Origin: Penicillium oxalicum
Lineage: Eukaryota; Ascomycota; Eurotiomycetes; Eurotiales; Aspergillaceae
DNA: 64,000 nt
NCBI RefSeq assembly: GCF_001723175.1
Contig: NC_064652.1
Location: forward strand, 2,914,001 to 2,978,000
Direction of reading: 5' to 3'
The notes below the pieces were generated by a model. That model saw only the letters and a program-made list of their open reading frames with translations. It was not told where the DNA came from and ran no database searches. Position numbers and translations under genes: made by a program. Positions 1 to 35,842 of the stretch are shown here, piece after piece (positions within the stretch are counted from its first letter, which is position 1; each line of letters opens with the position of its first letter).

Positions 1-2246
1 ATTTTTAGACTTAGTCGCGATCGAACTCTATACTTTTATAAAAGATAGCGAATTTTAGAAGGGATATAAGACTTAGGAAGATTTTAAGGATAGCTAGATA
101 GTAGCAAGAGAAGTAATTAATCGTCGCGAATATAATAAGAACTATATCTAGTAAGTAATATACGTAGCGCTATAAGCTTAGAATAGGGATACTAAAAAGA
201 TTATAATCAGAGTCCGAACGAAAGCTTTCGCCGAAAAGATTAGTAAACTAGTAAGAAGCAGGATTAGTTTCGAAGAGATGTAGCTCCGAGTTAATAACGC
301 TATTCTCTAACGACTTAAGAAAGGAATATATAGGCGGGGGATCCGAAGAGCTAAAGAGGTTATATAAGGTAATCTCGATAATACCTATAAATCGCTAGAT
401 TTAACGGAATTAACGCTAGAGAGGCTATTAAGATAATATCTATCTATTAATAAGGATAGATTTATATACGAATACTATCAGATACCGCGAATTTTAGATA
501 AGGCAGATAAGGATTAAAGTATAGCTCTAGACAAGGAAAACCTAGTTCTAGAAGGAAGCCGAATTTCTTCTATAGAAGAAATCTAACCGCGCAAACGGAG
601 CCCGGAACTAAGCGACGACGATAAAGATAACGATAACGATAAACGATCGTAGAAATCAGAACTATTAACAGAGCCTACTACTAAGAAACCGAAGATATTA
701 TAAGGTTTATTAAAGTTAGTACCCTACGGATATAAGATAGATACTTCTAGGCTAGCTAAAGTAATTCCGAAGACGAAATTAGATACTAAAAGTAAGCGCG
801 AAGCGCTAGTAATTTTTCGGCTTATTAGTAGGTCTATTCGTGAAAATACGACCGAAATTAGCCCTAATTCGATTTGCAAGGGGTATATAACTTAGCTAGT
901 ATATCTTTTGTATACTTATACTAATAGTATTAATTATAGGACTCTAGTATAATACTTATAATACCTTTATGCCTAGCTCGGTAACTAGGATAGGGCTAAG
1001 AAGGAATTTAAGGTTTAGTTTAAACTATCCTCTAGAAAAGAACTTAGGAGCTACTTTCGATTCCCTCCTAAGATACGAAAACCTTTAGTATCGAATTTCG
1101 AGGAGATATAGTATCTAACTTTTTAGTTTTCGCTATTTTAGAAGGGTTCTACTAAGCTTTGTGAAGAAAATAGAGAGGGATTAGAACGTTAACGGAAGCG
1201 TAGTAGTACTAATTTTTATATAGCTATATAATAATTAGGATAGCTATTATCCTCGCGATCTAATAGATATAATCGAGGAGGAATTTAATATATATAACTA
1301 GTATTACTAATCGCGAAAGTGTACGCTAAGGGTTAGATAGGCTAAAAACGTATAATATAGTAGTATCTAGTAACTAGTATAGCGCGACTATACCTACTAC
1401 CTACTCTATATTCTACTACGACTAGATTATTAATATTAGCTAATTTTATTTCCTTACTACGCGAAGAGTATATATCCTAGTAAAAAGACTACTTTCTGCT
1501 ATCTTAATATTAATATAACGGATCTCCTTATATCCTAACGAATAGCGAATACGATCTAGGGGACGGTTTCTTTAATAGATAAGAACCTACGAAATTATAC
1601 TAAAATACTACTTAGGATATAAAACTACCTCGCTAAGTAGTAGTAGGATCTATACGATCGTAGTTACTAGAAAGATAGTTTAATCTATAAGATATTAGCT
1701 ACGATATAGATAGTAGAAGATAAGGAGAAATTTAGTCTCTCCTAGGAAAAGGTTATCTATAGGTAGGAAGATATACGTATTTCGAAGCTATATCTTCCTT
1801 ATAGATTAATAGGACTAGCGACCTATCTTTAGCGAACGGTTTTGCCCTAGTTTATTAGTATTAGAGAAGATTATAAGATCTTAGATAGTCCTAAATTAGG
1901 TACTTAGTCTAAACTTTTAGCTTATTATCGCGATTTTTTGTTACCTAAAAAGACTCCTTCCGGGTAGTCTAGTTAGAAATATAGTAGTCGGCTTATATAT
2001 CCTTTTTCTATATTAATTCGGTTACTAGAATTAAGTCCGATTAGAGATACGCTAATTAGTCGCGAAAGATAGGATTCCCCTATAGTTATCGAAGAATTAG
2101 ACGTTCTTTTTAGCTAGAATTAGTAACGAGCGTATAGATTAATCTAGGAGTAGCACGACTAGGCGAGATAGGCCTATCTACTATATTTTAAGATAATAAT
2201 AAAGGCCGAATAGTAGTAATTTAGCGTATACTCTTATTTTCTGTGA
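1..2246 (+). pseudogene. Element A ORF2 (copy A3), RIPed; C-terminal half 2OG-Fe(II) dioxygenase-like
   Basis: An accessory frame between pol and the 3' LTR, in the same direction as pol; its start lies outside the window. Stops in the frame are TAG/TAA, as expected from CAG, CAA or TGG after RIP, up to a TGA at 2244-2246. The N-terminal part is highly charged (for example RREYNKNYI, KKIIIRVRTK, an acidic SDDDKDNDND run near 600-640), unlike the Ser/Leu/Tyr-rich noise of the other frames. From about 1,100 a second region reads like a fungal family I associate with 2OG-Fe(II) (PhyH-like) oxygenases: TTFCYLNINI at 1484-1513, where Tyr(TAT) and Asn(AAT) are RIP products of His and Asp and would give HxD; then GTVSL; then LPYR at about 1794-1805, giving a distal His. 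It ends FSVYSYFL. The family call is from memory of its pattern, not a search. A frameshift near 1,125 is likely because this copy lacks about 8 bp present in A1 and A2. Confidence 0.6.
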
Positions 2247-2384
2247 AAGGAGAAGGGCCTATCGGTTTTACTAAATTTTGTATAGCCTAATAAGTTAGCC
2301 TAAGGGTCTTTAGGAGATCTAATATTACTATTAAGGGATATAGAAAATTAACTAAGGGATAGTAAATTATAGGGGGGGAGGTTA

Positions 2385-2733
2385 TATAGTAGGAGATTCG
2401 GTTATATATACTTAAAGGCGGATATTTAGTAGTAGGAGATACCTAAGAGCCTTACCGCCGAGGAAGGTTATCTAGGACCTAGCTTGCGGGATCCGGTATT
2501 ATTATCATACTTAATTAATAGTTTAGACGGAGGATTTAGGACAGTCTTTACAGTCAGATTCCTTACACTTACAATATTATACTCTTTTTGATTCCTGCCT
2601 TTAGTACCTAATATCGGATCTCACGATTACCTTAGAGGATTCCAGGACTTGCGTGCTTTATAGGTTTAGTTTAGTCCCTCTATGACTCGACCTATCTAGT
2701 AAGATCAGACTACCGTGAGCATTCCCCTCTTTA
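2385..2733 (+). repeat. 3' LTR of A3
   Basis: 349 bp, starting TATAGTAGGAG (ancestrally TGTAGTGGGGG) and ending CCCCTCTTTA. The same LTR occurs at 13113-13463, 25961-26309 and 45351-45692. Copies differ mainly by CA-to-TA and TG-to-TA changes. Confidence 0.88.
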
Positions 2734-2737
2734 ATAT

Positions 2738-2960
2738 ATACTAAAGATAGGAATTAAAAAGAGTGTAATAATATAAGTATAAGGAATCTGACTATAAAGA
2801 CTATCTAGAATCCTCTATCTAAACTATTAATTAAGTATAATAATAATACCGGATCCCGTAAGCTAGGTCCTAGATAACCTTCCTCGACGGTAAGGCTCTT
2901 AGGTATCTCCTACTACTAAATATCCGCCTTTAAGTATATATAACCGAATCCCCTACTATA
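2738..2960 (-). repeat. Truncated 3' LTR of A2
   Basis: About 223 bp of the roughly 350-bp LTR, from its first base at 2960 to the interior sequence CTTTAGTA at 2738. The missing distal part would lie left of A3 if A3 inserted here. Confidence 0.8.
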
Positions 2961-3098
2961 TAACCTCCCCCCCTATAATTTACTATCCCTTAGTTAATTT
3001 TCTATATCCCTTAATAGTAATATTAGATCTCCTAAAGACCCTTAGGCTAACTTATTAGGCTATACAAAATTTAGTAAAACCGATAGGCCCTTCTCCTT

Positions 3099-5578
3099 TC
3101 ACAGAAAATAAGAGTATACGCTAAATTACTACTATTCGGCCTTTATCATTATCTTAAAATATAGTAGGTAGGCCCGTCTCGCCTAGTCGCGCTACTCCTG
3201 GATTAATCTATGCGCTCGTTACTAATTTTAGCTAAAAAGAACGTCTAATTCTTCGATAACTATAGGGGAATCCTATCTTTCGCGACTAATTAGCGTATCT
3301 CTAATCGACTTAATTCTAGTAACCGAATTAATATAGAAAAAGGATATATAAGCCGACTACTATATTTCTAACTAGACTACCCGGAAGGAGTCTATTTAGG
3401 TAACGAAAAATCGCGATAATAAGCCGAAAGTTTAGACTAAATATTTAATTTAGGACTATCTAGGATCTTATAATCTTTCCTAATACTAATAAACTAGGGC
3501 AAAACCGTTCGCTAAAGATAAGTCGCCGGTCCTATTAATCTATAAGAAAGATATAGCTTCGAAATATATATATCTCCCTACCTATAGATAACCTTTTCCT
3601 AGGAGAGACTAAATTTCTCCTTATCTTCTACTATCTATATCGTAGCTAATATCTTATAGATTAAACTATCTTTCTAGTAACTATAATCGTATAGATCCTA
3701 CTACTACTTAGCGAGGTAGTTTTATATCCTAAGTAGTATTTTAGTATAATTTCGTAGGTTCTTATCCGTTAAAGAGACTGTCCCCTAGATTATATTCGCT
3801 ATTCGTTAGGACGCAAGGAGATCTATTATATTAATATTAAGATAGCGGAAAGTAGTCTGTTTACTAGGGTATATACTCTTCGCGTAGTAAGGAAACGAAA
3901 TTAGCTAATATTAATGATCCGGTCGTAGTAGAATATAGAGTAAGTAGTAGGTATAGTCGCGCCGTACTAGTTACTAGATACTACTATACTATACGTTTTT
4001 AGCCTATCTAACCCTTAGTATATACTTTCGCGATTAGTAATACTAGTTATATATATTAAATTCCTCCTCGATTATATCTATTAGACCGCGAGGATAATAG
4101 CCGTCCTAATCGTTATATAGCTATACAAAAACTAGTACTATTACGCTTCCGTTAACATTCTAATCCCTCTCTATTTTCTTCACAAAGCTTAGTAGAACCC
4201 CTCTAAAATAGCGAAAACTTATATCCTAAAAAGTCAGATACTATATCTTCTCGAAATTCGATACTAAAGGTTTTCGTATCTTAGGAGGGAATCGAAAATA
4301 GCTCCTAAGTTCTTTTCTAGAGGATAGTTTAAACTAAACCTTAAATTCCTTCTTAGCCCTATCCTAGTCACCGAGCTAGGCGTAAAGATATCGTAAGCGT
4401 TATACTAGAGTCCCGTAATCGATACCGTTAGTATAAATATACAAAAGATATACTAGCTAAGTTATATACCCCTTATAAATCGAATTAGGGCTAATTTCGG
4501 TCGTATTTTCGCGAATAGACCTACTAATAAGCCGAAAAATTACTAGCGCTTCGCGCTTACTTTTAATATCTAATTTCGTCTTCGGAATCACTTTAGCTAG
4601 CCTAGAAGTATCTATCTTGTATCCGCAGGGTACTAACTTTGATAAACCTTGCGATATCTTCGGTTTCTTAGTAGTAGGCTCTATTAACAGTTCTAATCTC
4701 TACGATCGTTTATCGTTATTATTATCTCTATCGTCGTCGCTTAGTTCCGGGCTCTATTTACGCGGTTAGATTTCTTCTGCAGAAGAAATTTAGCTTCCTT
4801 CTAGATCTAGGTTTTACGATTAGATTTCTTCTATAGAAGAAATTTAGCTTTTATCCTTATCTAGAGCTAGGCTCTAATCCTTATCTACCTTATCCAAAAT
4901 TCGCGGTATCTGATAATATTTATATATAAATCTATCTTTATTAATCGACAGATAGTATTTTAATAACCGTTCTAGCGTTAGTTCCGTTAAATCTAGCGAT
5001 TTATAGGCGTTATCAAGATTACCTTATATAACCTCTTTAGCTCTTCGGATCCCCCGCCTATATATTCCTTTCTTAAGTCGTTAGAGAATAGCGTTATTAA
5101 CTCGGAGCTATATCTCTTCGAAACTAATCCCGCTCCTTACTAGTTTACTAACCTTTTCGGCGAAAGTTTTTATTCGGACTCTAATTATAATCTTTTTAGC
5201 GTCCCTATTCTAAGCTTATAGCGCTACGTATATTACTTGCTAGATATAGTTCTTATTATATTCGCGACGATTAATTACTTCTCTTGCTACCGTCTAGCTA
5301 TTCTTAAAATCTTCCTAAGTCTTATATCTCTTCTAAAATTCGCTATCTTTTATAAAGGTATAGAGTTCGATCGCGACTAAGTCTAAAAATACCTATCCTT
5401 TTTCGTAAATCTTATATAGATAGAGCTTTGCTATCTTATAGATCTAGTCCGTAGGTAGCGTACGTAATTCTTCGATAATCTTAGTAGGGGAAGTAATTTA
5501 TATTAAACAATTACTTAGTATCGAAGGTATAATATTAAGATACTAGCTTGCGGCGGATATCGTAGCCTAGTCCGTTAT
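3099..5578 (-). pseudogene. Element A ORF2 (copy A2), RIPed
   Basis: The complete ORF2 span in this copy, about 826 codons. The probable start is ATA at 5578-5576 (an ATG after RIP), and it ends at TGA (3101-3099), the same stop as in A3. It lies about 350 bp downstream of the pol stop in the pol direction. The N-terminal half is charged, with two in-frame copies of the palindrome that encodes SSAEE-like residues (4771-4788 and 4824-4842). The C-terminal half carries the HxD...H dioxygenase-like pattern described for A3. The copy has many RIP stops and probably small indels. The function for the element is unknown. Confidence 0.6.
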
Positions 5579-5929
5579 ATTAAATTCTTCCGCAGAAGAA
5601 ATTCGCAGAGTTTAACGTATCGTTATAGGTCGATATCTTCTGCAGAAGAAATTTGTAGTACTTAGCGAAAATTATTATGATTTAAGCTCTTTCCGGAGAC
5701 TTCTCTCCCCTCCTAAAAATCTTGCTATCCCTAGCAAGTTCCTTTTCTATTACCTTTTAAAATAGTCTCAAAAACTACTAAATTTCTAAATAAAGACAAA
5801 ATTTAGTAAATCTAATAAATTTAATCTACTTCTAAGAGAAATTAATAAAAATACAAACAAATCCGAAATATTCGTATTAAATAGACTAATTAATATACTA
5901 CCTTTTTAATAAAGAAAAATATCGAATTA

Positions 5930-8900
5930 AATTAACCCTGTCCCTCTCGCGATAGCCGTCCTCTTCTGCGCCTTTATATAGTAGGTAGTAATCCGTTCTT
6001 AGCCTTAATTCTTTTATCCTTATCTAAATTTCTTTTATCCTAGAGCGCCTAGTAATAAAATCTTTTTAGCCTACTACTATTAATACTAGCGCTTACTTTA
6101 TTTATCTATTAGTATAGGGTACTATCTAATTCTTTAATTTCGTATACGCTATTTTTTAGATCTTTTCTAATTCGATACGGCGCTATCTATCTAAATCGGA
6201 GCTTATTTCTAGACGTTATATTATCCTCTAACCTAGTATTATAGAGAAGGACTAAATCTTTTGCTTTTAGGAGCGTAATTCGTAGGTTTCTATACGAGTT
6301 ATAATATTCTTTATTCTAAGCTCTTAGCCTCTATAGCCGTATTATTATATTAGAGATATCCTAGTCTCGTCTTTTAATTTATTTAGCTCGTAACGTAATT
6401 AGATCTGCGCGTGTCTCTACCTTTTCCTAGAGTAGTATCGACTAGATAGGTATATCTAATTCTACTAGCAAGATAGTATCTTATCTATAAATAAATCGGA
6501 AGAGTAAGATACTAGTATACGTATATAAAGTCGCTCCGTTAGTAAGTATCGTAGCCGGTAGCTTTTAGGACTATTTTAGTTTAATACCTTCTAATAGTTT
6601 ATACCTATTCGTTATTTTAGATAAGGCGTCTTTTAGAGTTCGTATTACTCTCTTAATCGCCCTATTCGCCTACGGGTTATATACCGAAATTAAAATAGTA
6701 TTAACGCGGTACGATTTCAAAAAATTTCGTATTTCCGAACGTATTTTAGGACTAAAATTAATAATAATCTCCTAAGATATCCTATACCTATAGATAATAT
6801 CCTCCTAAATAAATCCGGTAGCGCTTTTACTATCTACCTTCTAGAGAATCCTTGCTTCTAGCTACCTACTAGCTAAATCTCTTACTTAGATAACTCCTTT
6901 TTAACCTTCCTCGTTAGGTAGCGGGGTAGTATTAATATACTATTTCTCCTAGATTCGTATTAGTCTTACGCTTCTTATAGGTTTATATAGTCTAATAGGA
7001 TTACGCGCCTAGTATTCGAAGTATACGCGTATAAATTTCGTAGTCTTATTATATATTCCTAACTAATAGTATCGTATAGCTAATAGGTTATAAGTAGCTT
7101 CGCGGCCTTTATAGCCTAATTCTTTATATAAGCGCTATAGCGTCTCTTTTCGTATTCTAGTATCGTCTAAAACCCTTCGTATAATTAGATCTCTACTATA
7201 TCCTCTATAAAATAGATATTAATCTTAGACCGTAAATTTTAAAGCCTTTTTCTTAAACGTACTAAATTTATTACGAGATATCTTAGCTAGCCTATATAGT
7301 GTTATTAAGAATCTTATAATTTTCTAAGATTCTTCTAAATAAGACCTATCTAGAATTTCTATACCGATATTTATTTCTTCTATAGAAGAAATCTCTTAAG
7401 AGATAGGAATTTTAACAGAAACTATAGTTTCTACTAGAGAAACCGTAACGCGAAGATAAGAGATTTTAGCTATAATAAATTTATTAATATCTCTCACCTT
7501 TTCTTGCTCTTCTATTTCTTTAGGCGTAGCGGGCTTCCTAGATAAGCTATTAACGGTACTATTTTTCGTCCTAGGAATATACTTTATATTAAAATCGAAG
7601 AGCTAAATCTAAGTAAGCTATCGCGTTACTAAGGTCCTAGGTAAGTCTGAAGCTAGTCGATTTAACTACGTAACTAGTATATTAGTATTAGTTTCTAATA
7701 TAAATCTTACCCTATATAGCTAATACCGTAGCTTTTTAAATACCTTTATTACTCCTCGATATTCTAATTTTCTAGTATCGTATATTTACTCTAATTTAGA
7801 CTAAACCCCTAACTCGTATCGTACGACTCGTTATACCTCTTCTCTTTTCTATATCAAAACGCTACTCTATCCTATTTTTAACGCGTCTACTATAAGCGTT
7901 AGGTCTAACAAATTCTAGCTATAATCGACTAGTATAACCGCCGGAAAGCTATATAGTATCTCCTTAATCTTCTTAAAGGTATTCTATTTATTATTACCCT
8001 AATAGAATATCGTATCCTTCCGCAAAATCGTATATAATAGCGCTATAATATACTAAAAATCCTTTACTAGAATTCGAAAGTAGACCGTAAGACTAACAAA
8101 AGAGTATATCTTATCGCGATTAATAGGGACTAGCTAGTCGGCTAACTTAGAAATTTTCCGCTTATTAGATCTACGCCTATTAGAATCGTATATCTAGCCT
8201 ATAATTTCAAGGCCGGATATTATAAGTTACGACTTTTCTATAGAAACTCTCGCTCCTATAAGTTCTAAAAGGTACAGGGTCTTATCTAGATTTTATATAT
8301 ATTCTAAGATAAACCTCCTAATCCCTAGTCTTACAAACTCGTTATTATACTAGGTCTTAGGTCCTTTAACTAGAATATTATCTATAAAAGGTTTAGTAAT
8401 ATACAGAATATCGGCTAGGATCTATATAACTACTCTTTAGAATTACGGTATAGAATTCGAAGCCTCTTATAATAATATAGTCTGTCTTAGTAAACCGATC
8501 AGGGTCTAGATCGCCGTTATATTTTAATCGCGACTATCTAGAGTTATCTAGTTATACCCGGAAAATAGATTAATAGCGGATAATATTACTATACCTAAAA
8601 ATTCTTTAACGAATTCGTCTATATTAGAGAGTATATTCGTATCTCGTACTATTACTTTATTAATATATATTATAGCGTTTACTATACGATATTTTCTATT
8701 CTTCTTACGTACTAAGAACTAAGGATTTCGGTAGGGACTATTATAATATTCTAGACCCCTTTTTATAATCTTTCCTGTAATATCTCTTTAACTATACCTT
8801 TTAGCGCTAGCGGGATTTAAAATCTAGGATACTACTAGGCCTTATACTAAATCGTCTTAATATATTATAGCGATATTACTTCCGGGAAAATTAAAGATAT

Positions 8901-10020
8901 ATAGGACTAATTCTACGCAAAATAACCTTCTCTTTTAAATAGTATCTCGCGTAATAATCCTCTTTCCTTTAGTAGAAGATCCTTTCTAATTAATATTTTC
9001 TGCTTCCTTTTAGGTATTAGACGCGTACCTCTTATAATTATAGAGATCCGTAGTATTAGTAGATTATTAAATATACTTTTAATATTAGACGCGCGATATT
9101 TAGTAAAGTATTTCTTTTCGTAGATTTCCTTCTAATTTATATAACTAGTTAGTACCGATCTATCGTTTTCGGTCGTATTAACTAGTTTAATCTTGTCCGC
9201 TACTCTTTTAAACAAAGTATAAACCGGTATACCTATACCTATAGGGCTAGGGCTCGGATTTATAGTTAAAAGATACCTTAGTCGTAGAAATCTTATAGTA
9301 ATATCCTATAGCTACCTACGCGGAATCTTATAGTCGTAGCTAATTTTTAATTTATCGAAAATTTTTAATATCTTTCTGTCTCTTATATTTTTAAATATTT
9401 TTAGTACTTTTATAGCGTTTTTAGAGGATACTATTAAAACGTATAGTAAATTATAGCCTATTTTTAGTATCGGTATCTTATTTATTATACTAGAAGTATC
9501 GCTAATTAGGCTTCCGGATATCCTAAAAAATCTATCTCTGTATTCGTAGGTTCTATAAAATCTTTAGGCTATAGCTAATACTTCTAGACTAAGGTTTTCT
9601 TACTCGGAGAATATACCTTAAAGACTAACTTCCTAGTCTAGTCTTCCGAAAAGACTACTATTTTAAAAAACTATTAATTTTCTCTGTAGTAGAAGCTATT
9701 ATATCGCGTAACTAGATTCGTCCTAGAAGAATCTCTGCTATATAATCCTTTATAATTATATAGTAAGAGTACGTTATAATATCGCCGATTAAAATAGGTA
9801 AGCCTTCTGTAACTCCGTAAAAGGGACGCGTTCGGCTATTAATAGGTACTATATATAGCTTTAGATCTTTTCGAATATTAAGGTTTAATATATATACCGT
9901 TTCTAGGGAAATAAGATTAACTAATAATCCCTAATTAATCGTAGCTTTAAGCTTATACCTATATACGTACACCTTTATATATAAGAGCCCTCTAGTATAT
10001 TCCTTAAACGTACCCGGATT
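5930..10020 (-). pseudogene. pol: pol of element A2 (protease, RT, RNase H, integrase), RIPed
   Basis: Collinear with pol in A1. The protease segment lies near 9,960-9,700; its catalytic site reads N-stop-G where D-[ST]-G is expected. RT follows, with the FIDN (from FIDD) palm and the following VKGP at about 8,400-8,380. The integrase lies near 7,500-6,000 and has the typical PQEII...EIRNFLK run and a GPY/F-like end. The C-terminus (5938-5972) is Arg-rich with a GRP-type AT hook in its ancestral reading. No frame is intact. Confidence 0.82.
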
Positions 10021-12790
10021 TCGCGGTGCAGAGATTCGCACCGATCTCCTAAGATCCTATATCCGCGCGGTTACTTTATCTACTTTTGTAACTCGCTAAG
10101 TAGTAGCGAAGTATATAGGCGTAGTAGTATTTATAGTATTCGTAGTATTTATAGTATTCGTAGTAACTATAGGTACCGAAGGTTCGAAGGAATTCGTAAT
10201 ATTTCTGACTTAGCTACGTAGTTACGGTGATATAAATATTAGATTACCTAGTATAATCGTAGGCGGTATAGGAATAGCTAGCAATTTTCTAGTAATTTTT
10301 CCTTACGTTAGGTAGTAGTATCCGCGGAAGATTTTAGGCGCTTTTAGATAGGCATCGAAAATCTTATATCTTGACTAGCTCTCTAGGTCTAACTACCCTA
10401 GTCTTAGATTTCTTCTGTAGAAGAATCTCGCGGCTAACTATTTAGTTAGCGCTCCTATTCTCGCCTTTAAATTTCTTCTATAGAAGAAATTCGCAAAGGG
10501 GCTAGTGCTATATCCGCTATTATATCGTCTTTATTAATAGTCGCTAGATAGTATCTACTCGGTTATATACTACGTACTTTCGTATAAATTCTAGACTAGT
10601 TAGAGCGCTTATAACCGGCTAGTTATCTATTAATAGCGAAGACTTCTCTCTTATATATTTCGTCTTCTCTCCCTTCTAATCCTTCGAAATTAGCGTTTTT
10701 CTAAGGGAAATCCCTACTAAATCTACCTAAGTAGTATAAATTTACGGAGTATAGTAAGAATAGACCCCTAAATATAATTAAGGCGTAGTAATAGTAGAGA
10801 TAGCGTTAACGCTTACGCGTTAATTCTTCTACTACTAGTACTAGTTAGGAACTATATCTTTCTAAAATTAGTTACCTCTCTTGCGCGCCTCTAGTCTATT
10901 CTTACTAACCCTTCTAAGTACTACCCGATTTAGTTTATTCCGGTAGTATAGTCCTTTATTTTATATACTTAGATAGACAGGATAACTAGTTACCCGATAC
11001 CCTTTATTCCTATATTAGTAGTAACTATTAGATATCTGTCTTATAGGTATATAAGCAGGATTATTTCGGTTATTATTTTTCGCGATTAGGTGCTAAACTA
11101 AGACTCTCTATTTATTAGTAGCCTTCCGCTAGTCTTAATAACCTTTAGTATATTTACTAACAGACCGTTAAAAGCTTTCGTTAAACTTTCTAAATCCTAT
11201 CCTCTTAGAGAGCTTATATTCTTCTCGCAGAATCTCTATTTTTCGGAGTATCTATTATTTTCTATCTCTTATACGATTTTTCTCTAGAATCCGCGTAGAC
11301 CTAGATTCCTTTCTTAGGTACTACGTAGCCTATCGCGAGATCGTAATCCTTCTAGTCCTAATTTAGATTCCTAGTAGCTTTTTTAATCTAATCGAAAGAG
11401 ATCTATCTTTTACTCCTAGAAGGGTAGTTAATATTAATTTTCTCCTTCTTAATTAATTTCGATCTTAACTTTTCGGGTAGTCCTTTAATAAACTAAGTAT
11501 ATTGTTCTAAATCGCTAATATCTCCTCTCTTTACTAGGTATAATAAAACAGATAAAAAGATAGTTAAATATATATAAAAGTCGTCCTATTTAATACGATT
11601 TCTGTAGAAGCTCTATAACTAGGCACGAGTATAGGTAGCCTATAGGCTATTAGTATTATAATACTAATCTTTAAAGTCCTAAAAAAACTCTTCCTTGTTC
11701 TTCGCTTACTAGTTAGTATTCGTCTTAACCTATATACGCTATAGCTAACTATAGTAATCTAGAAGGATCTCTAAAATTCACGCGTTATTTCTTATATTAT
11801 AGCGCTTATATATATATTTAAAACTATCTAAGAATTCTGATATATTTCTGCCTTCGAATCGTAGCGTACTAGGGGTCCCTAGCTTAGGTATAGTCCTAAC
11901 TATATATCGCAAAGTTTATATCTCGAATTAGGCGTATAAACTTGCGTTAGTATTAGCGAAGGAGCTAGTCTCGGCGGTAGTAGCGGCGGTAGCTATACTC
12001 TCTCGCTAAACCCTTTAGGCGATCCTTTAGCAGACTTAGAAGAAGCTTAATCGCTAGGATTACGATAGGTATAGAAAGAGGTTATATTCGTAGGTATATC
12101 TAAAGATATTCTGTAGTCGTTTAGTTATTTAGATTACGATAATTACTTTAGCTTCGTAGGCTCTATCTAGTCCGGATATTTTTAGGGTTTTTTAGGTATA
12201 ATAGTATCTAGAGGGATATAGTAAGATTCGCAAGATAATTAACTCTTTAAATTTAACGAAGTCGTAAAATTAGTAGCTAGTCTAGATAGTAGCGTAGTTC
12301 CTAATTCTTTTCGATTTTTCTTCTAGTTTCGTACTCTCTTTTTATAGCTATTCCTTTCTTTTTTATCGCTTTTCGTCGTCGTTTAGCATATATTTTTCTT
12401 ATGTTTTCTTCTACAGAAGAATTTTTTAACTACTATTTTAGTATAGCATTCTCTTCTAGTAAGATCTTTATATTAGCCGCTATAGAAATCTTTCTTAAGC
12501 GATAAACTAACTCTATATAAAGTTCAGATAGACTAAGTTTATCTATTAATATAATTAGTCCGGAGATATTTTTAGTAATCGAATTAATATCTCTCGATCC
12601 TCTTAGTATTAATTAGCTAATAATCCGCGAATAAGCTAGGTATACTAGTCGAATAAAGGTATAGTATTAGCTATAAGATCCTCGGTAGGAGTAGCCCCCT
12701 ATATATAGCTAAAAGTCGCGTATTTAGCTATAATATAAGGTATTAGTTTCGAATAATAGTCTTAATTTCTCTTAATTTTTCGTCAGGGTT
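10020..12790 (-). pseudogene. gag: gag region of element A2, RIPed
   Basis: Collinear with A1 gag. The zinc knuckle is at 11023-10982 and reads Y-x2-Y-x4-Y-x4-Y, that is CCHC with every ligand codon (TGC/TGT, CAT/CAC) turned to Tyr by TG-to-TA and CA-to-TA changes. Two in-frame palindromes lie C-terminal to it (10409-10425, 10470-10490) and one lies near the N-terminus (12405-12422). Confidence 0.75.
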
Positions 12791-12895
12791 AAACGCGTTG
12801 CCTACTTTTTCTGCAGAAAAGTGCAGAATTTCTTAATTATAGCGGTAGTCGTAATAGTAGCGGTCGTAGCGGTCGTAGTAGTCGTTCTAGTCGTC

Positions 12896-13031
12896 TTAGT
12901 CTTAGCAGTCTTAGTAGCAATCTTAGTAGCAATCTTAGTAGTAATCTTAGTAGCAATCTTAGTAGCAATCTTAGTAGCAATCTTAGTAGCAATCTTAGTA
13001 GCAATCTTAGTAGCAATCTTAGTAGTAGATC
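12896..13031 (-). repeat. 12-bp minisatellite in the leader of A2
   Basis: About 11 tandem copies of a 12-bp unit (TTAGTAGCAATC on the plus strand) just inside the 5' LTR. On the element's sense strand it would encode Lys-Ile-Ala-Thr-type repeats. The matching array in A1 (26396-26500) is shorter and more divergent, so copy number varies between elements. Confidence 0.88.
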
Positions 13032-13112
13032 CTTTTATAATCGTATCGTAGGAATAGTATAGTCCTCTATCTTAGCTACCTTTATTATAAAAACCCCTAT
13101 ATCGGTTACTAA

Positions 13113-13463
13113 TAAAGAGGGGAATACTTACGGCAGTCTGATCTTACTAGATAGGTCGAGTTATAGAGGGACTAAACTAAACCTATAAAAGCACGCAAGT
13201 CCTAGAATCCTCTAAGGTAATCGTGAGATCCGATATTAGGTACTAAAGGCAGGAATCAAAAAAGAGTGTAATATTATAAGTATAAGGAATCCGACTATAA
13301 AGACTGTCCTAAATCCTCCGTCTAAACTGTTGATTAAGTATAATAATAATGCCGGATCCTATAAGCTAGGTCCTAGATAACCTTCCTCGACGGTAAGGCT
13401 CTTAGGCATCTCCTACTACTAAATATCCGCCTTTAAGTATATGCAACCGAATCCCCCACTATA
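13113..13463 (-). repeat. 5' LTR of A2
   Basis: 351 bp, the reverse complement of the LTR at 25961-26309. It is less RIPed than the 3' LTRs, since several CA and TG survive. Confidence 0.88.
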
Positions 13464-15826: not shown

Positions 15827-16053
15827 TGCGCTAAATATCTGGCAGTCAGGTAGAGGAAGAAAGTCCTAGTGTGTAAAATTCATAGCAAGAACGGCAATTA
15901 AAAGTTGCTATTGTATAACAACTGTACGGGCTATGCCCTACTAAAAATAAATCATACGCAAAAACAATATTCAAATATACGAATTCGACGGCGACCATTC
16001 TGCTCATATATCAACAGTAAGAAGAAACTAGCGTACTTTCTCTCAAGCATTCA

Positions 16054-17600
16054 TTAGTTAAGCTTTTTTACAGCCTCTTGATGTGTCTTGTCGAGGGATT
16101 TTCTTTTCGCTTTCACTTCATCCTCGAGTTTCTTCGTAGCCTCCTGATAAGTCTTGCCGAGGGATTTTCTTTTCGCTTTCACTTCATCCTCGAGTTTCTT
16201 CGTAGCCTCCTGATAAGTCTTGCCGAGGGATTTTCTTTTCGCTTTCACTTCATCCTCGAGTTTCTTCGTAGCCTCCTGATAAGTCTTGCCGAGGGATTTT
16301 CTTTTCGCTTTCACTTCATCCTCGAGTTTCTTCGTAGCCTCCTGATAAGTCTTGCCGAGGGATTTTCTTTTCGCTTTCACTTCATCCTCGAGTTTCTTCG
16401 TAGCCTCCTGATGAGTCTTGCCGAGGGATTTTCTTTTCGCTTTCACTTCATCCTCGAGTTTCTTCGTAGCCTCCTGATGAGTCGTGCCGAGGGATTTTCT
16501 TTTCGCTTTCACTTCATCCTCGAGTTTCTTCGTAGCCTCCTGATGAATCTTGTCGACGGCAATTATTTGTGTAGCACTCCTTTGCCTATTCAATTCATCC
16601 CTGGACCACTTCACCATGTCCTGTTCAGTATTGATATCTTCAGAAGAGATCGCAATAGAAGTAGACCCGGTGGTCTCCGATGTTGTTTCCTCCCGATTTG
16701 TTGCATTATGATCGCCTCCTATTTGGTCCAAAAGCGAATACAATAAACCACATATCACGAGTATCTGTAATCCATTCCGCGGAAGCAGGAATAGTGGTAG
16801 CAGGAAAATAGTATATATGGGTGTGATTAGCCCATCCTAGAATATATAGTAAGCAACTGTTCGCAAGGGACAATTGTATATTTGAAATAGCAAACCTGTT
16901 GATGTTCAACTTGCTTGAACTGCCCACACGATATGGCCTGCCTTTCACTGGAAGTCATTAAGCTTCTCAGTTCCATTATATCGTTGCTGTGTCCTACTTG
17001 TCTCCATTTCACCTTGTAAGGTCTCGACCCAAATTGCTCCACCCATTTTTCACTTCTATCATTTGGCCATAGCTCATAAAAAAACTCATCATCTTTGCCT
17101 TCCAAAATCATAGGATGGGTTATCATAATGTTTTTGACGGAATTTCGACCAAATAAGCCCCGAATTATGGGCTCTTCGATGAGTTGGTAATAAGACAGAC
17201 CTGACGGATGAAATCGCTCTGGCGGTGGAGGTGAAAGCAGTGTGACCTTTTCAGCCTGAGCTATACGCCAAGCAAATATAGCTGAAGCACCATGAACATA
17301 TCTCTTCCACTGTCGCTGATTCTTTTTCAATTTTAGGCATTCTGGGTGTTTTTCATCCATGAGCGGCCCCATTGCCGTAGTCAACGTTTGAAGTTGATGC
17401 CTATCAGCCCATTCTTGAGCCACTTCGCGAGGCATTCCACTCCAGAGGACTTGGCCATTCGGTATCCATTCTTTTGATTGGAATTGTTGGATTATTCGAG
17501 CTGTTTCTTGTGCGGAGAGGAATCGCCTCACCACCTGAACGAGAGGCGCTTGAGCTGACTGTTGGTCGGAAAGAAATTGAAAAGGCTTTTCATAATCCAT
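16054..17600 (-). CDS. Two-exon gene: unknown fungal N-domain, membrane segment, coiled-coil repeat tail
   Basis: Predicted exon 1 is 17600-16896 (235 codons). A 59-nt intron follows (16895-16837, 5' GTTTGC, branch-like GCTTAC, 3' TTCTAG), then exon 2 at 16836-16054 (260 codons), giving about 495 residues. The intron is inferred: without it exon 1 runs to a TAA after only 22 more codons and exon 2 has no ATG. With it the frame is continuous and exon 2 opens with a hydrophobic stretch (LITPIYTIFLLPLFLLP then LQILVICGLLYSLL), a likely transmembrane segment or hairpin. An alternative acceptor at 16765 also keeps the frame but removes most of the hydrophobic stretch. The N-terminal region has WSGMPREVAQEWADRHQLQT, TAMGPLMD, YVHGASAIFAW, PPPPERFHPSGLSYYQ and IMITHP motifs, a pattern I associate with uncharacterised ascomycete proteins; no function can be assigned. 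The C-terminus is seven exact 22-residue units plus a partial one. Base composition is normal and un-RIPed, in contrast to its surroundings. Confidence 0.8.
16072..16550 (-). repeat. 66-bp in-frame tandem repeat (7 units plus a partial)
   Basis: Near-identical 66-bp units, each encoding 22 residues with core EATKKLEDEVKAKRKSLG. Only the first residue of each unit (His or Tyr) and a few others vary. The alternation of charged and hydrophobic residues predicts a long coiled coil. Near-identity of the units implies recent expansion or homogenisation. Confidence 0.95.
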
Positions 17601-17716
17601 TAATCAGTTAGGCAATAAGGAAAAGAAAGCAGGGAAAAGAAGCCTGTTCTTTAATGGTCCGGTCAAGACATAGCTAGGATAGAAGACGAAAGTAGCTGGA
17701 GAGATTGACTTATCCT

Positions 17717-25900: not shown

Positions 25901-25960
25901 TTCCGCTAAGTATAAGTCTTCGAAGTTATAAAGTTCTTTAGGCTAACTAGCGATTCCTAT
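22938..25960 (-). pseudogene. pol: C pol: RT, RNase H, integrase, chromodomain (RIPed)
   Basis: Minus strand. From 25,960 leftward: a LSRAKLQELREYI-like RT entry, then KSPIGVPIFFVLKKDSG and DLIAF-to-NRYPL motifs, the polymerase site AYLDDILIF (YLDD at 25393-25382), and RNase H and integrase. It ends in a chromodomain at 23050-22938: EVEEV, then YFLVK-stop-KD-stop-PSKYNE-stop-VPEE, where the stops are RIPed Trp codons of the aromatic positions. This places C in the chromovirus clade, whose chromodomain is known to steer integration to modified chromatin. Not intact. Confidence 0.85.
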
Positions 25961-26309
25961 TATAGTAGGGGATTCGGTTGCATGTACTTAAAGGCGGATA
26001 TTTAGTAGTAGGAGATACCTAAGAGCCTTACTGTCGAGGAAGGTTATCTAGGACCTAGCTTACGGGATCCGGTATCATTATTATACTTGATTAACAGTTT
26101 GGACGGAGGATTCAGGACAGTCTTTATAGTCAGATTCCTTACACTTGCAATATCACACTCTTTTTGATTCCTGCCTTTAGTACCTAATATCGGATCTTAC
26201 GATTACCTTGGAGGATTCTAGGACTTGCGTGCTTTATAGGTTTGGTTTAGTCCCTCTATGACTCGACCTGTCTAGTGAGATCAGACTGCCGTAAGTATTC
26301 CCCTCTTTA
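25961..26309 (+). repeat. 5' LTR of A1
   Basis: 349 bp; lighter RIP than the 3' LTRs (keeps TTGCATG and CTTGCAATATCACAC). Confidence 0.88.
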
Positions 26310-26382
26310 TTAGTAACTAACGCAGGGGTTTTGCAATAAAGGTAGCTAAGATAGAGGACTATACTATTCCTACGATACGATT

Positions 26383-26595
26383 ATGAAAGGATCTGCTACT
26401 AAGATTACTACTAAGATTGCTACTGAGATTACTACTAAGATTGCTACTAGGATTGCTGCTAAGATTGCTACTAAGATTGCTACTAAGACTGCTAAGACTG
26501 AGACGACTAGAACGACTACTACGACCGCTACGACCGCTACTATTACGACTACCGCTATAATTAACAATTTTAGCGCTTTTCTGCAGAAAAAGTAG
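26383..26595 (+). pseudogene. Repeat leader frame of A1 (Lys/Thr/Ala-rich)
   Basis: An intact 70-codon frame starting at ATG 26383, made of 12-bp repeats encoding KIATK-type units then a Thr-rich tail, ending SAFLQKK. It may be the gag N-terminus or an upstream ORF. Its survival reflects the repeat's scarcity of CpA in risky codon positions as much as selection. Confidence 0.45.
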
Positions 26596-26639
26596 GTAAC
26601 GCGTTTAACCCTGACGAAAATTAAGAGAAATTAAGACTA

Positions 26640-29600
26640 TTATTCGAAACTAATACCTTATATTATAGCTAAATACGCGACTTTTAGCTATATATAGGGG
26701 GCTGCTCCTACTAAGGGTCTTACGGCTAATACTATGCCTTTGTTCGACCGGTATACCTAGCTTATTCGCGGATTATTAGCCGATCGATACTAAGAGGATC
26801 GAGAGATATTAATTCGATTACTAAAAATATCTCCGGACTAATTATATTAATAGATAAACTTAGTCTATCCGAACTTTATATAGAGTTAGTTTATCGCTTT
26901 AGAAAGGTTTCTATAGGCGGCTAATACAAAGATCTTACTAGAAGAGAATGCTATACTAAAACGGTAGTTAAAAAATTCTTCTATAGAAGAAAACACGAGA
27001 AAAACGTTTACTAAACAGACGACGAAAAGCGATAAAAAAGAAAGGAACGGCTATAAGAAGAGAGTACGAAACTAGAAGAAAAATCGAAAAGAATTAGGAA
27101 CTACGCTACTATCTAGACTAGCTACTAATTTTACGACTTCGTTAAATTTAAAGAGTTAATTACCTTGCGAATCTTGCTATATCCCTCTAGATACTATTAT
27201 ACCTAAAAAACCCTAAAAATATCCGGACTAGATAGAGCCTATAAAGCTAAAGTAATTATCGTAATCTAAATAACTAAACGACTACAGAATATCTTTAGAT
27301 ATACCTACGAATATAACCTCTTTCGATACCTATTATAATCCTAGCGATCGAGCTCCTTCTAAGTCTGCTAAAGGATTGCCTAAAGGGTTTAGCGAGAGAG
27401 TATAGCTACCGCCACCGCTACCGCTAAGACTAGCTCCTTCGCTAATACTAATATAAGTTTATACGCCTAATTCGGAGATATAAACTTTGCGATATATAGT
27501 TAGGACTATACCTAAGCTAGGGACCCCTAGTACGCTACGATTCGAAGGCAGAAATATATCAGAATTCTTAGATAGTTTTAAACGTATATATAAGCGCTAT
27601 AATATAAGAAATAACGCGCGAATTTTAGAGATCCTTCTAGATTACTACGGTTAGCTATAGCGTATATAGGTTAAGGCGAATACTAACTAGTAAGCGAAGA
27701 ACAAGGAAGAGTTTTTCTAGGACTTCAAAAATTAGTATCGTAATACTAATAGCCTATAGGCTACCTATACTTATACCTAGTTATAGAGCTTCTGCAGAAA
27801 TCGTATCGAATAAGACGACTTTTATATATATTTAACTACCTTTTTATCTGTTTTATTATACCTAGTAAAGAGAGGAGATATTAGCGATTTAGAACGATAT
27901 ACTTAGTTTATTAAAGGACTACCCGAAAAGTTAAGATCGAAATTAATTAAGAAGGAGAAAATTAATATTAATTATCCTTCTAGGAGCAAAAGATAGATCT
28001 CTTTCGATTAGATCGAAAAAGCTACTAGGGATCTAAATTAGGACTAGAAGGATTATAATCTCGCGATAGGCTACGTAGTACCCGAGAAAGGAATCTAGGT
28101 CTACGCGGATTCTAGAGAAAAATCGTATAAGAGACGGAAAATAATAGATACTCCGAAAAATAGAGATTCTGCGATTAAGAATACGAGCTCTCTAAGAGGA
28201 CAGGATTTAGAAAGTTTAACGAAAGCTTTTAATAGTCTATCGGTAAATATACTAAAGGTTATTAAAGACTAGCAGAAGGCTACCGATAAATAGAGAGTCT
28301 TAGTTTAGTACCTAATCGCGAAAAATAATAACCGAAATAACCCTATTTATATACCTATAAGACAGATATCTAATAGTTACTACTAATATAGGAATAAAGG
28401 GTATCGGGTAACTAGTTATCCTGTCTATCTAAGTATATAAAATAAAGGACTATACTACTAGAATAAACTAAATTAGGTAGTACTCGGAAGGGTTAGTAAG
28501 AATAGACTAGAGGCGCGCAAGAGAGGTAACTAATTTTAGAAGGATATAGTTCCTGACTAGTACTAGTAGTAGAAGAATTAACGCGTAAGCGTTAACGCTA
28601 TCTCTACTATTACTACGCCTTAATTATATTTAGGGGTCTATTCTTACTATACTCTGTAAATTTATACTACTTAGGTAGATTTAGTAGGGATTTCCCTTAG
28701 AAAAGACGCTAATTTCGAAGGATTAGAAGGAAGAGAAGACGAAATATATAAAGGAGAAGTCTTCGCTATTAATAGATAACTAGCTAGTCGTAAGCGCTCT
28801 AACTAGTCTAAAAATTATACGAAAGTGCGTAGTATACGACCGAGCAGATACTATCTAGCGACTATTAATAAAGATAATATAATAGCGGATATAGCACTAG
28901 CCTCTTTGCGAATTTCTTCTACAGAAGAAATTTATAGGTAGGAATAGGAGCGCTAACTAAATAGTTAGCCGCGAGATTCTTCTGCAGAAGAAATCTAAGA
29001 CTAGGATAGTTAGACCTAGAGAGCTAGTCAAGATATAAGATTTTCGATACCTATCTAAAAGCGCCTAAAATCTTCCGCGGATACTACTACCTAATATAAG
29101 GAAGAAATTGCTAGAAAATTGCTAGCTATTCCTATATCGCCTATAATTATACTAGGTAATCTAATATTTATATTACCGTAACTACGTAGCTAAGTCAGAA
29201 ATATTACGAATTCCTTCGAACCTTCGGTGCCTATAGTTACTACGAATACTATAAATACTACGAATACTACGAATACTACTACGCCTGTATACTTCGCTAC
29301 TACTTAGCGAGTTATAAAAGTAGATAAAGTAACCGCGCGGGTATAGGATCTTAGGAGATCGGTGCGAATCTCTGTACCGCGAAATCCGGGTATGTTTAAG
29401 GAATATACTAGAGGGCTCTTGCGTATAAAGGTATATATATATAGGTATAAGCTTGAAGCTACGATTAATTAGGGATTATTAGTTAATCTTATTTCCCTAG
29501 AAATAGCACGTATATTAAACCTTGATATTCGAAAAGATCTAAAGCTATATATAGTGCCTGTTAATAGCCGAACGCGTCCCTTTTACGGAGTTACGGAAGG

Positions 29601-29731
29601 CTTGCCTATTTTAATTAGCGATATTATAATATACTCTTACTATATAATTATAAAGGATTATATAGCAGAGGTTCTTCTAGGACGAATCTAGTTACGCGAT
29701 ATAATAGCTTCTACTACAGAGAAAATTAATA
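26640..29731 (+). pseudogene. gag: A1 gag and protease region, RIPed
   Basis: Collinear with A2. The zinc knuckle at 28378-28419 reads Y-Y-Q-Y-R-N-K-G-Y-R-V-T-S-Y, a CCHC knuckle with all four ligands turned to Tyr. Around 29,440-29,730 a protease-like run (LLVNLISLEIARILNLDI, then GVTEGLPILISDI) is seen; the catalytic triplet reads N-stop-G. In-frame palindromes lie at 26975-26992, 28911-28932 and 28976-28994 (SSTEE/SSAEE). B1 interrupts just after protease. Confidence 0.75.
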
Positions 29732-29736
29732 GCTCT

Positions 29737-29914
29737 TGATAGACCTACAGTTCTACAAGGCAAGGAAGCAATCTGGAGGCGAGACAACTGGGATTGGGAA
29801 GTCTAGGGAGAAGGAAGAAGAGAGAGAGAGGGAAAACCCACGATAGGGAAAAACCCTCAAGATACATGACCGCTACTAGGCCTAGCAAATATCTAGAGAG
29901 GGCAAACTCTCTCA
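29737..29914 (-). repeat. 3' LTR of B1
   Basis: 178 bp, begins TGATAGACC and ends CTCTCTCA on the plus strand; lightly RIPed. Confidence 0.93.
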
Positions 29915-29992
29915 CACCCCCCCTAGGACCAGCAGCAATATAAATAATAATATATATAGTAGTATAACATAATAAAATTTAGAAGGGGAGGG

Positions 29993-32900
29993 TTAGTTAG
30001 GATCTCTTATGCGCAATAATCTGGTACGATTATTTTGAAAAATCCTATTGGGCTTAGTTTTAGTAAGCATATTAGCGGTATTATCCTTGCTCGGGATATT
30101 GGTTAGTTAGATAAGGTTCTTTTTAATAAGGTCTCTGATTAAATAGTATCTCGTGCTAATCTAGGATAATTTTGGGCTAACTTTAGGGTTTATAACGGTC
30201 GTAATAGTATTATCGGAATCACAAAATAGGGTAATTAGGATATTTTTGTCGAATTCTTTATCTTGGTTTAATAGGGGCATAAGTAAAAGGTTAGTAGCAA
30301 TTTTAGTAAGGTAAAGTCCCTCTTTCGCTATAGTCGTAAGGGTATAGTATTCGGCTATAGTCGATAAGGCTACTACGATATCTTGTCTTTTTGAGCTCTA
30401 TAAGATTAGGGTACTAGTAAAGAACTAAATATATACTTCGGTAGATTTTCTATCCTCTATATTAGCGTATAATAAGTCGATAAATCCTTCTAGACCCTTT
30501 AAAGGTTCTTTTCTAAATAGGATTCCTAAATTTATAGTGCCTATAAGGTATTATAACAAAACTTTGTACGCTACTATATTATCTTTTCTCGGGTGTGCGT
30601 TACGGCGCTATAGTTTAGACACGGTCGCTATAATATCCGGGCGTATTTTGATTAAGAGCTAACCGATCTTTCCTATTATTTTAGCATAGGCACCCTAATC
30701 GAATACGTTATCCTCTATTAGATTATTTAGATAGGGGATTTTCTAAGAGGGATTTATTAGAATTAGCGAAGGATTATAATTTTTATAGCCCTTATTATAG
30801 ATTAAATCTGTTAAATAAGCCTATTAGCTTATAAAGATATAGCTAGAGGGTTCTTTAATTATATTATATCTAAGGAATCTTTTAAATAGGAGGGTCTTTA
30901 GTTTTCTTTTATTTAAAAGGCCCTTTTTTATAGAGTTTAATTAATCCTTATATCTAGTCGCGAGGATATTATCTATATAGATTATAACAAAATATAGTAT
31001 AGTCCTTGTTAGTGAAGATATATAGTTCGGAGGGGATTAGAGAGAGGCCTAGGCTAGATAGGTTATCTTTGAAAAGTTTATGCTAGAGATATCCTGCTTG
31101 TCGCAATCTATAAAGCGCCTGGTTTAGTACGTATGCCAGATCTTCTCCTTTTAGGCTAAATTATTTATATCTAGTTAGTTACTTTATAAATATAATACGG
31201 TTGTTAATAGCAGTATTGAGGTAGGCTCTAATTACGTCCTACTGTTCCTTTTTCTAATTGCGGATAGCAGCCATAGTAATAAATAACTTGGCCGATACAT
31301 CTAAGACAAGACCCATCTGGCGCGGAATTCTAGGACATATCCTTCAGTATCCTGTTTGATGTCATAGACCTATTTGCCTAGAAGGATTTTGGTACCTTTT
31401 AGGGGTTTAGTTACTAAAGTCATTATATTAGATAATTTAAACTTCTTTAATTAGGTCTCTTCGGCTTTAAGCTATTAATCGGCGAATTAGGATTTTATAG
31501 CTTCCCTATAGGTTTAAGGGATTTTAATATTGACCGTATTATCTTAGTAGCTATGCTTAATATACTAGGTCTAATTAAGTTATCTTTAGTAGACGTAGCG
31601 AAGCATAAACTTCCTTTCGTTCTCTCTTTATGCTCTTCCTTAACTAGTCCTTTTATAGTAGTATCTACTATTCCTTCTATAAGTTATCTCGGAGTATATC
31701 TCCGCAGGCTTCTTCTTACTAGAGAGATAGAGCGTCTCTAGTCGCTCGTGAAATCTAGTTAATTTATCGTAATAGTGTCGATAGGGTCCGCTAATAAAGC
31801 TTGTAATATTAGGTAGCTACGGAACCTCTAAGGAATTACTACTAGAGGGGGGAGTTATAGTTAAATTAATTAGGATAGTATCTTAGACTTTTTAATAGTA
31901 GGATTTAGGTTAGATTCTGCGTAGGTAGGAATTATCTAGTATAGTCCTTCTCTTAATTAACGGATTAGACTATCCGGGTTCTAGCGTGAAAAAATTCCTC
32001 CTAGTTAGGAATTAGGTCTCTAGGGATTTAGATTTTAGGATCCGGTCGAGTATTAGGGGCTCTTTTCCTTAGTTATATCGGTAAAATTTTGCGATATTAG
32101 GAAGGTTATAAAATTAGGATATTTTAGTCCTCTAGTATAGTTAGTAGTATACTTAGAGGGATTAGAGCGGGTTAGGGAAAAATTCGTCCTCGCGTAATTC
32201 TAGGTCTTTTAGGAATTAGACTTAAGGAGGTAGAAGATTATATCCCCTTCCTCTTTCCTATTAGAGAGGTAGAATTTTTAGAGTATAGGAAGTTTATAAA
32301 ATTTAGATTTCTTCGTAGGTATCTAGGCTTATATTAGAGTAGGTATTACGGTCGGGATCTTTATAGTAGTCGTTATCCGCGCGGGTAGTCTTTTAGGTAG
32401 GCCTATTTAATCGTTTTACGGTTATATCGGTTGTCTTTTTGATATTTTAGATCTTTATATTATAGAACCTTTCTTGTATAATCTGTTTAATTCGATTATC
32501 TAGGTCTAATAGCAGTGTAGATAGTTCTTCCTAAAAGTCTATATCTCTTCTGATTATAACTTTTCTCTTATAGGTCGTAAATCCTATATTAGTAGCTATT
32601 CTTACTATTATATCTAACTAGGTATCTAATCTATACCCTCGGGGTATCTTTTGTCCTTAGGTTCGTTATTCTTTTAGAATATAGATATAGGCTTTAGAAT
32701 ACTAGATACGTAAAAACCCTAAATCGATTAGTTACTTTACCCTAGAGCTATTAGTATTATACTAGTACTTATTCTATCTTTCTAAAGGGGACAATTTTTT
32801 ATTTAGTTTACGGATTCGGTTTATAATATAGGTAGTAGTAACTATAGCTTTAGGCTACAAAAATACAGCTTAGGGCGTAGCTACTATAAGGGTTCGGGCC

Positions 32901-35252: not shown

Positions 35253-35664
35253 AGTTGTATTTAGGAATATGATTAAGGTTTAGGTAAATTTGATGATTTA
35301 GGTGATTTAGATAGGATTTGGGATAGAATTTGGTAAGAAGGGAGGTTTGTGGGGATATATAGTGTTGTTGTGTTGTGGTGTGGTTTGAAGTAAGAGATAT
35401 TAATATTATAGTAGTCCTAGCAAATATTAACAGACGCGTCTTTTCTTTTGTAATTGAATTTGGCTTCTATAGCCTAGTTAATTTGTTAATTAATAGTTTC
35501 TGGCTTCCACAGCCTAGTTAGATTTGTTGATTTGTATTTAGTAATCTGGTGATTTTGGTAATTATAGCTTCCACAGCCGAATTTAGTAAACTTGGTGATT
35601 GGAAATTTGAGAACTTATAGTTTTCACAAATTCAGGCCTTACTATTGCGATCGGGCTTATAACC

Positions 35665-35842
35665 TAATAGACCTACAGGTCTACAAGGTAAGGAAGCAAT
35701 CTGGAGGCGAGACAACTGGGATTAGGAAGTCTAGGGAGAAGGAAGAAGAGAGAGAGAGGGAAAACCCACGATGGGGGAAAAACCCTTAAGATACATAACC
35801 CTGCTAGGCCTAGCAAACATCTAGAGAGGGCAAACTCTCTCA
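35665..35842 (-). repeat. 5' LTR of B1
   Basis: 178 bp, begins TAATAGACC (from TG) and ends CTCTCTCA on the plus strand. It is followed inward by the PBS complement GGGCTTATAACC (35653-35664). Confidence 0.93.

Follow-up and report, generated by a model that had tools for sequence, protein, structure and literature searches.

A Ty3-type retrotransposon of Penicillium oxalicum carries an accessory gene related to 2-oxoglutarate oxygenases

What is the large reading frame that lies between pol and the 3′ long terminal repeat (LTR) of a retrotransposon in Penicillium oxalicum, and what could it do for its carrier? We analysed a 64-kb stretch of this genome (the window, G000:C3:2914001-2978000) that holds three copies of the frame, hereafter open reading frame 2 (ORF2), and searched the genome of 30.8 Mb in 17 contigs. 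ORF2 is the accessory gene of a ~10.7-kb Ty3-type LTR retrotransposon and, by sequence comparison, is homologous over almost its entire length to a protein family with many members from Penicillium that have ~850–900 amino acids. On balance, we favour reading ORF2 as an accessory 2-oxoglutarate (2OG) oxygenase gene of this element, with counter-defence as the likeliest of its possible roles.

Results

Reading frame and relatives of ORF2

The window contains three ORF2 copies:

1-2246, plus strand: ORF2 copy A, truncated at its 5′ end because the window starts within it (complete at G000:C3:2913813-2916246)
3099-5578, minus strand: ORF2 copy B, near full length, with 63 in-frame stops
42780-45212, plus strand: ORF2 copy C, frameshifted by small indels

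The copies share 92–94% DNA identity and stand where the initial annotation had placed them. Its bounds hold overall, except that copy A is truncated as noted and that the frame may extend some tens of bases further 3′. Some 30 copies (26 to 31, by length) occur in the genome at 84–94% DNA identity to copy B, and every copy listed is broken. Repeat-induced point mutation (RIP) is very strong in the three window copies, where CpA and TpG are almost absent; the (CA+TG)/(AC+GT) index is 0.12–0.16, versus 1.39 at 16–18 kb. The whole genome yields three C5-DNA-methylase matches at two loci.

The copy B frame is continuous but carries its stops (43 TAG, 19 TAA and 1 TGA) within 822 codons. Such a frame, together with its oxygenase motif, might be a chance reading of AT-rich RIPed DNA, and stop content indeed hardly separates it from the other frames. 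Stop cells make up 6.8% of the ORF2 frame versus 7.7–11.8% of the other five, and among 23 full-length copies the codon columns that are stops in every readable copy number 24, compared with 36 and 48 for the two remaining plus frames and 21, 31 and 42 for the minus frames. We rejected per-frame stop counts as proof of coding because they are too weak, one minus frame scoring lower (21) than ORF2 itself. The frame is established instead by its homology to intact proteins. The C-terminal region of a read-through of one copy other than copy B, with stops masked as X, retrieved a single protein, P0001 (899 amino acids, E 3.1e-31), which is 25% identical to the same copy across 766 residues. In the opposite direction, P0013 of P. 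nucicola matched RIPed ORF2 copies in the genome down to E 7.2e-92 (55 of 76 candidates scored). These nearly full-length matches to an intact, coherent protein family refute a chance reading, to which we assign negligible probability.

Using the catalytic region of P0001 as query, we obtained 29 further proteins, 30 in all, whose named sources are Penicillium (13), Caloplaca (one) and Plenodomus (one). Copy B searched with words from its first 500 residues gave no homologue, and pattern matches to the relatives in collections of viral contigs and genome contigs were confirmed in 0 of 49 and 0 of 75 cases, respectively. In family members the N-terminal half is helical and the linker acidic and disordered; a zinc-like CxC...CxxH site and a C-terminal 2OG/Fe(II) oxygenase domain complete the layout. 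P0023 is nearest to ORF2, with 40–43% identity over 643–689 unmasked columns in five copies. In a tree of 27 relatives and five copies, from which P0025, P0027 and P0028 were omitted because they lack segments, the ORF2 copies join P0023 (99/97) and next P0017 and P0021 (97/92), nested within the family; the letter make-up of the ORF2 copies was flagged as skewed, by RIP. All 57 listed matches of P0013 and all 46 listed matches of P0026 in this genome contain stops, so no intact relative appeared in it.

Three diverged stretches with stops, at G000:C8:742995-743981, C1:2675013-2675975 and C7:1871269-1872009, match P0013 and were missed by the copy B DNA search. Here the same passenger may perhaps sit in element families that are older than, or additional to, the present one.

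Substitutions among the copies retain a codon-position signal. Over 749 columns per codon position, transversions at positions 1, 2 and 3 number 28, 19 and 42 (p 0.011), and transitions outside RIP context 77, 56 and 105 (p 0.0005), these p-values being optimistic because the copies are related. This bias outside RIP context fits what would be expected if the sources of the copies were under protein-level constraint before RIP. The single protein-like frame between pol and the 3′ LTR proposed in the initial annotation is thus borne out, being continuous in copy B and upheld by both homology and codon-position bias.

The predicted oxygenase half

In copy B, the layout of the family can be followed along the whole frame:

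3099-5578, minus strand: N-terminal half, acidic linker, zinc-like CxC..CxxH sites and C-terminal 2OG oxygenase-like half
3269-4141, minus strand: catalytic-half piece
near 3836-3844, minus strand: HxD-equivalent codons
near 3542-3544, minus strand: distal His equivalent
near 3512-3514, minus strand: Arg equivalent

The frame contains all four motifs first described, TTFx(Y)L(N)INI, GTVSL, L(P/S)(Y) and FSVYSYFL. Their Tyr and Asn had been taken for former His and Asp, and the relatives agree, carrying His and Asp at these sites, as does a minority of genomic copies. Among the 30 relatives, the HxD His and Asp are each found in 28, the distal His in 26 and an Arg at +10 in 28; the zinc-like Cys, Cys, Cys and His each occur in 28. 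This Arg, about ten residues after the distal His, probably binds the 2OG carboxylate.

Across 30 ORF2 loci in the genome, counted over the copies readable at each site, RIP has left little of this set. The HxD His persists in 1 of 28 copies (Tyr in 27), the Asp in 5 of 27 (Asn in 22), the distal His in 1 of 27 (Tyr in 26) and the Arg in 14 of 27, the other 13 having a stop. The zinc-like sites retain Cys in 6/28, Cys in 1/26, Cys in 12/28 and His in 4/29. No copy of the 30 holds all four catalytic residues; 13 hold none, 13 one and 4 two.

PhyH (PF05721) scores 39.4 bits in P0026 (cut-off 22) and 16.2 bits, below the cut-off, in P0001, and is found at E≤1 in 5 of 30 relatives. Pfam searches with three X-masked frames of copy B and with X-masked ORF2 pieces gave no match, PhyH included; NCBIfam gave nothing useful for five relatives, and the PDB searched by sequence no meaningful match. 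The AlphaFold model of a relative matches 2OG oxygenase folds with a double-stranded beta-helix, best of all DUF1479/YbiU, with GriE, SnoN, FtmOx1 and AsqJ also among the nearest. DUF1479 is not among the 17 Pfam families listed for the relatives. The C-terminal half of ORF2 very probably adopts a 2OG oxygenase fold. We consider it likely that the ancestral ORF2 protein was catalytic, with Fe(II) and 2OG, and infer that source elements made an active oxygenase from ORF2.

The HxD...H 2OG-Fe(II) oxygenase-like C-terminal half of the initial annotation is therefore upheld by the full catalytic set in intact homologues, by PhyH over its cut-off in one relative and by the fold match. Among the folds that it named (PhyH/TET-JBP/JmjC-type), our results favour PhyH, the nearest solved structures being DUF1479/YbiU. 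TET/JBP and JmjC were not matched; neither they nor AlkB are among the 50 fold matches listed, which does not disprove kinship.

Architecture of the element

Behind each ORF2 copy in the window lies a ~350-bp repeat, of which only 222 bp are left for copy B. We identify this repeat as the LTR because it also opens the same elements, at 25961-26309 (plus strand) and 13463-13113 (minus strand). The minus-strand element spans about 10.7 kb (13463 to 2739). In the plus-strand element, which extends from 25961 to 45690, two insertions (29733-35848 and 36086-38982) separate three blocks, 25958-29732, 35849-36085 and 38983-45567, which match a single stretch of the minus-strand element. Between the LTRs the order is gag-pol and then ORF2, which lies 3′ of the integrase and 5′ of the 3′ LTR:

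25961-26309, plus strand: 5′ LTR of the plus-strand element (copy C)
26310-29732, plus strand: gag and the beginning of pol in that element, without a Pfam match
29733-35848, no strand assigned: first insertion, foreign to that element, with LTR-like repeats (family D2) at 29737 and 35665
35849-36085, plus strand: 237-bp piece of that element between the insertions, matching the minus-strand element between its two main blocks
36086-38982, no strand assigned: second insertion, foreign to that element, with LTR-like repeats (family D2) at 36086 and 38804
38983-42440, plus strand: rest of pol, end approximate
~39500-40200, plus strand: reverse transcriptase (RT)-like stretch, recognised by eye only
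~40240-40900, plus strand: RNase H-like stretch
~41230-41360, plus strand: putative integrase zinc domain
45351-45690, plus strand: 3′ LTR of the plus-strand element
13113-13463, minus strand: 5′ LTR of the minus-strand element (copy B)
5579-13112, minus strand: gag-pol and the stretch up to ORF2 of that element
2739-2960, minus strand: 3′ LTR of that element, cut at the junction with the LTR of copy A
2385-2733, plus strand: 3′ LTR of the element carrying copy A

Pol gave Integrase_H2C2 matches (E 0.00036 and 0.027) and, upstream of the integrase match, RT_RNaseH (E 0.084), all below Pfam cut-offs. A chromodomain is not among the Pfam matches listed for the pol stretches, which are themselves strongly RIPed.

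The same arrangement recurs in the genome, where we found 46 ORF2 matches, 31 of them ≥1.3 kb, and at least 41 LTR matches (LTR counts are lower bounds, 40 of 83 candidates having been scored). Among the 31 longer matches, 20 have the RT stretch 2.56–2.64 kb upstream on the same strand, at least 12 have an LTR 136–142 bp downstream, and at least 16 are preceded on the same strand by an LTR no more than 20 kb away.

At 1-5390, two elements stand tail to tail, forming a 2.6-kb near-palindrome centred on their 3′ LTRs. The second insertion of the plus-strand element contains a 234-amino-acid open frame (37487-38191) with no Pfam match and a G+C content of 0.43–0.45, above that of its surroundings. 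The stretch at 16021-16836 shows no signs of RIP, contains 66-bp tandem repeats and is open on both strands (241 and 260 amino acids). It adjoins a 258-amino-acid open frame at 16827-17603 (minus strand), which has no Pfam family over the cut-off.

A 20-bp palindrome whose perfect form is specific to the element family

A new feature of the element is a 20-bp palindrome that occurs at eight places in one element and whose perfect form is confined to the element family. Allowing at most two mismatches, the pattern ATTTCTTCT-N3-GAAGAAAT matches the window 34 times over both strands, versus 0.09 expected. These matches are 17 sites, 16 of which lie in copies of the ORF2-carrying element; the 17th, at 63785, has two mismatches and lies outside it. 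The copy B element has eight palindromes, at element positions 1041, 2974, 3037, 6072, 7812, 7862, 8621 and 8675, and the copy C element keeps seven of them. Six of the eight form three close pairs, of which one immediately precedes the ORF2 start (element position 7886) and another falls within the ORF2 linker:

5583-5652 (starts 5583 and 5633), copy B: pair upstream of the ORF2 start; in copy C, 42706-42725 and 42756-42775
4770-4843 (starts 4770 and 4824), copy B: pair in the ORF2 linker; one equivalent at 563-582 (copy A) and at 43511-43530 (copy C)
7373-7392, copy B: palindrome in pol; in copy C, 41005-41024
10408-10490 (starts 10408 and 10471), copy B: pair in the first part of gag-pol; in copy C, 28912-28931 and 28975-28994
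12404-12423, copy B: palindrome near the 5′ end of the internal region; in copy C, 26974-26993

In the genome, 33 sites carry the perfect form, ATTTCTTCTGCAGAAGAAAT, and all 33 belong to the ORF2-carrying element family: 26 in ORF2 matches, 6 at 1.53–1.59 kb upstream of the family RT and one 1.50 kb downstream of it. The pattern read backwards has 0 occurrences in the genome. The arms contain neither CA nor TG and are therefore immune to RIP, which partly explains their sharpness. Because the flanks of most sites differ, the repeated unit is the 20-mer itself. It could serve as a binding site, form an RNA hairpin or be a small repeat that spreads. The linker palindromes read in frame as ISSxEEI; neither this peptide nor the other two forward readings are found in the relatives (P0002 has one loose SSSEE), and we rejected the palindrome peptide as a family-wide protein motif.

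Discussion

An anti-silencing role of ORF2, drawn by analogy, is a tentative proposal that we place somewhat short of probable. The ORF2 protein would attach to DNA, RNA or chromatin of its own element and would oxidise either a silencing protein or a mark such as a methyl group; such oxidation would ease transcription or copying of the element in vegetative growth. A more specific version, in which the N-terminal half or zinc site would bind the palindrome and a PhyH/DUF1479-type oxygenase would oxidise a silencing mark carried by the DNA, RNA or chromatin thus reached, is quite doubtful. If true, it would amount to targeted anti-silencing of the VANC kind, with oxidative chemistry built in. 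What makes counter-defence the likely role is the behaviour of 2OG oxygenases retained in other mobile elements, for which action on nucleic acid has been reported or proposed (PMC9289625; PMC12730594).

Several observations weigh against an oxygenase gene of counter-defence. The copies are heavily RIPed, so ORF2 gave no lasting protection from RIP. The likely first codon is ATA in 29 of 29 readable copies among 30, with a start codon in 0 of 29; this ATA was presumably once the start codon. An RT at the expected distance is missing from 11 of the 31 longer ORF2 matches, which truncation or nesting could explain. Two relatives have Tyr in place of the distal His, and P0030 (987 amino acids), a distant member, lacks the HxD and has also lost the distal His, being perhaps a non-enzymatic offshoot. 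The fold was seen for the model of a relative, not for the window's own ORF2, and no TET/JBP, AlkB or JmjC is among the 17 Pfam families listed for the relatives. DUF1479, GriE, SnoN, FtmOx1 and AsqJ are mostly small-molecule enzymes or uncharacterised, and we know of no DNA or histone demethylase among the nearest solved folds. Finally, the family may consist of host genes.

That last point leads to the chief alternative, that a Ty3 element captured a host metabolic PhyH/DUF1479-like gene by transduction, without service to the element, and that the Penicillium proteins are ordinary host genes. The metabolic or small-molecule character of most of the nearest folds suits this explanation, as do the annotation of 13 of the 30 relatives as Penicillium proteins and the nested position of ORF2 in their tree. 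It is at odds, however, with the stops in every listed genomic match of P0013 (57 listed, with the scoring given above) and P0026 (46) and with the deep divergence of the family within Penicillium. Moreover, a place kept in some 30 copies, together with third-position bias, argues that ORF2 was kept while the element multiplied. We regard simple capture as unlikely, if still to be reckoned with. A protein that keeps the oxygenase fold only, serving as a non-catalytic nucleic-acid-binding or scaffold part (an env- or gag-like accessory), is improbable given HxD in 28 of 30 relatives and the Arg in as many.

Under the favoured reading of ORF2 as an oxygenase gene of the element, an uncharacterised protein family gains its first setting and a testable activity. 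Its intact relatives are proteins with which the idea of transposon-encoded counter-defence against RIP or methylation can be tried, and the repeated palindrome offers a direct binding test.

Comparison with known systems

We know of no mobile-element link for DUF1479/YbiU and Candida albicans GIG2. Their chains (PDB 7twe, 4rgk and 6akz) differ from ORF2 in having 409–451 residues, with 11–15% identity. The long members among relatives P0001–P0030 are homologous to ORF2 across nearly its whole length and share all motifs, but are mostly intact where the ORF2 copies are broken. VANC of VANDAL transposons is not known to be an oxygenase, unlike the predicted ORF2 protein. The likeness lies in a short motif repeated within the factor-encoding element, here a palindrome (PMC5735166).

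An additional ORF of unknown function has been noted in fungal Gypsy elements, which by description resemble the present element in having an extra ORF in a fungal Ty3/Gypsy setting (PMC2864245). TET/JBP dioxygenases occur in fungal DNA transposons and Helitrons and were proposed to act against methylation or RIP-like silencing; the author of this survey of fungal TET/JBP genes comments that they are absent from retrotransposons (Kojima 2025, PMC12730594). Those elements and ours are alike as fungal mobile elements with a 2OG oxygenase passenger. They differ in that theirs are reported as DNA transposons and Helitrons only, whereas ours is an LTR element with no TET/JBP among the Pfam families listed.

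Among the titles and abstract openings listed from the open-licence literature, none described an LTR element of a fungus that carries an oxygenase of PhyH or DUF1479 type. A close parallel is found in Ty3/Gypsy elements of the orchid Phalaenopsis, whose ALKBH5-like ORF2 is reported to have N6-methyladenosine RNA demethylase activity in vitro (PMC9289625). Both are Ty3-type elements with an extra ORF bearing the 2OG oxygenase HxD...H and an Arg in the 2OG-binding position, kept during family diversification. The orchid elements have a plant host and an oxygenase of the AlkB branch, whereas here the predicted fold is PhyH/DUF1479-like and the host has RIP. Transposon-borne 2OG dioxygenases are thus already known from these two reports, TET/JBP in fungal DNA transposons and ALKBH5-like in orchid Gypsy elements. 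That a Ty3 element carries an oxygenase from a different branch suggests that mobile elements have recruited 2OG oxygenase chemistry independently.

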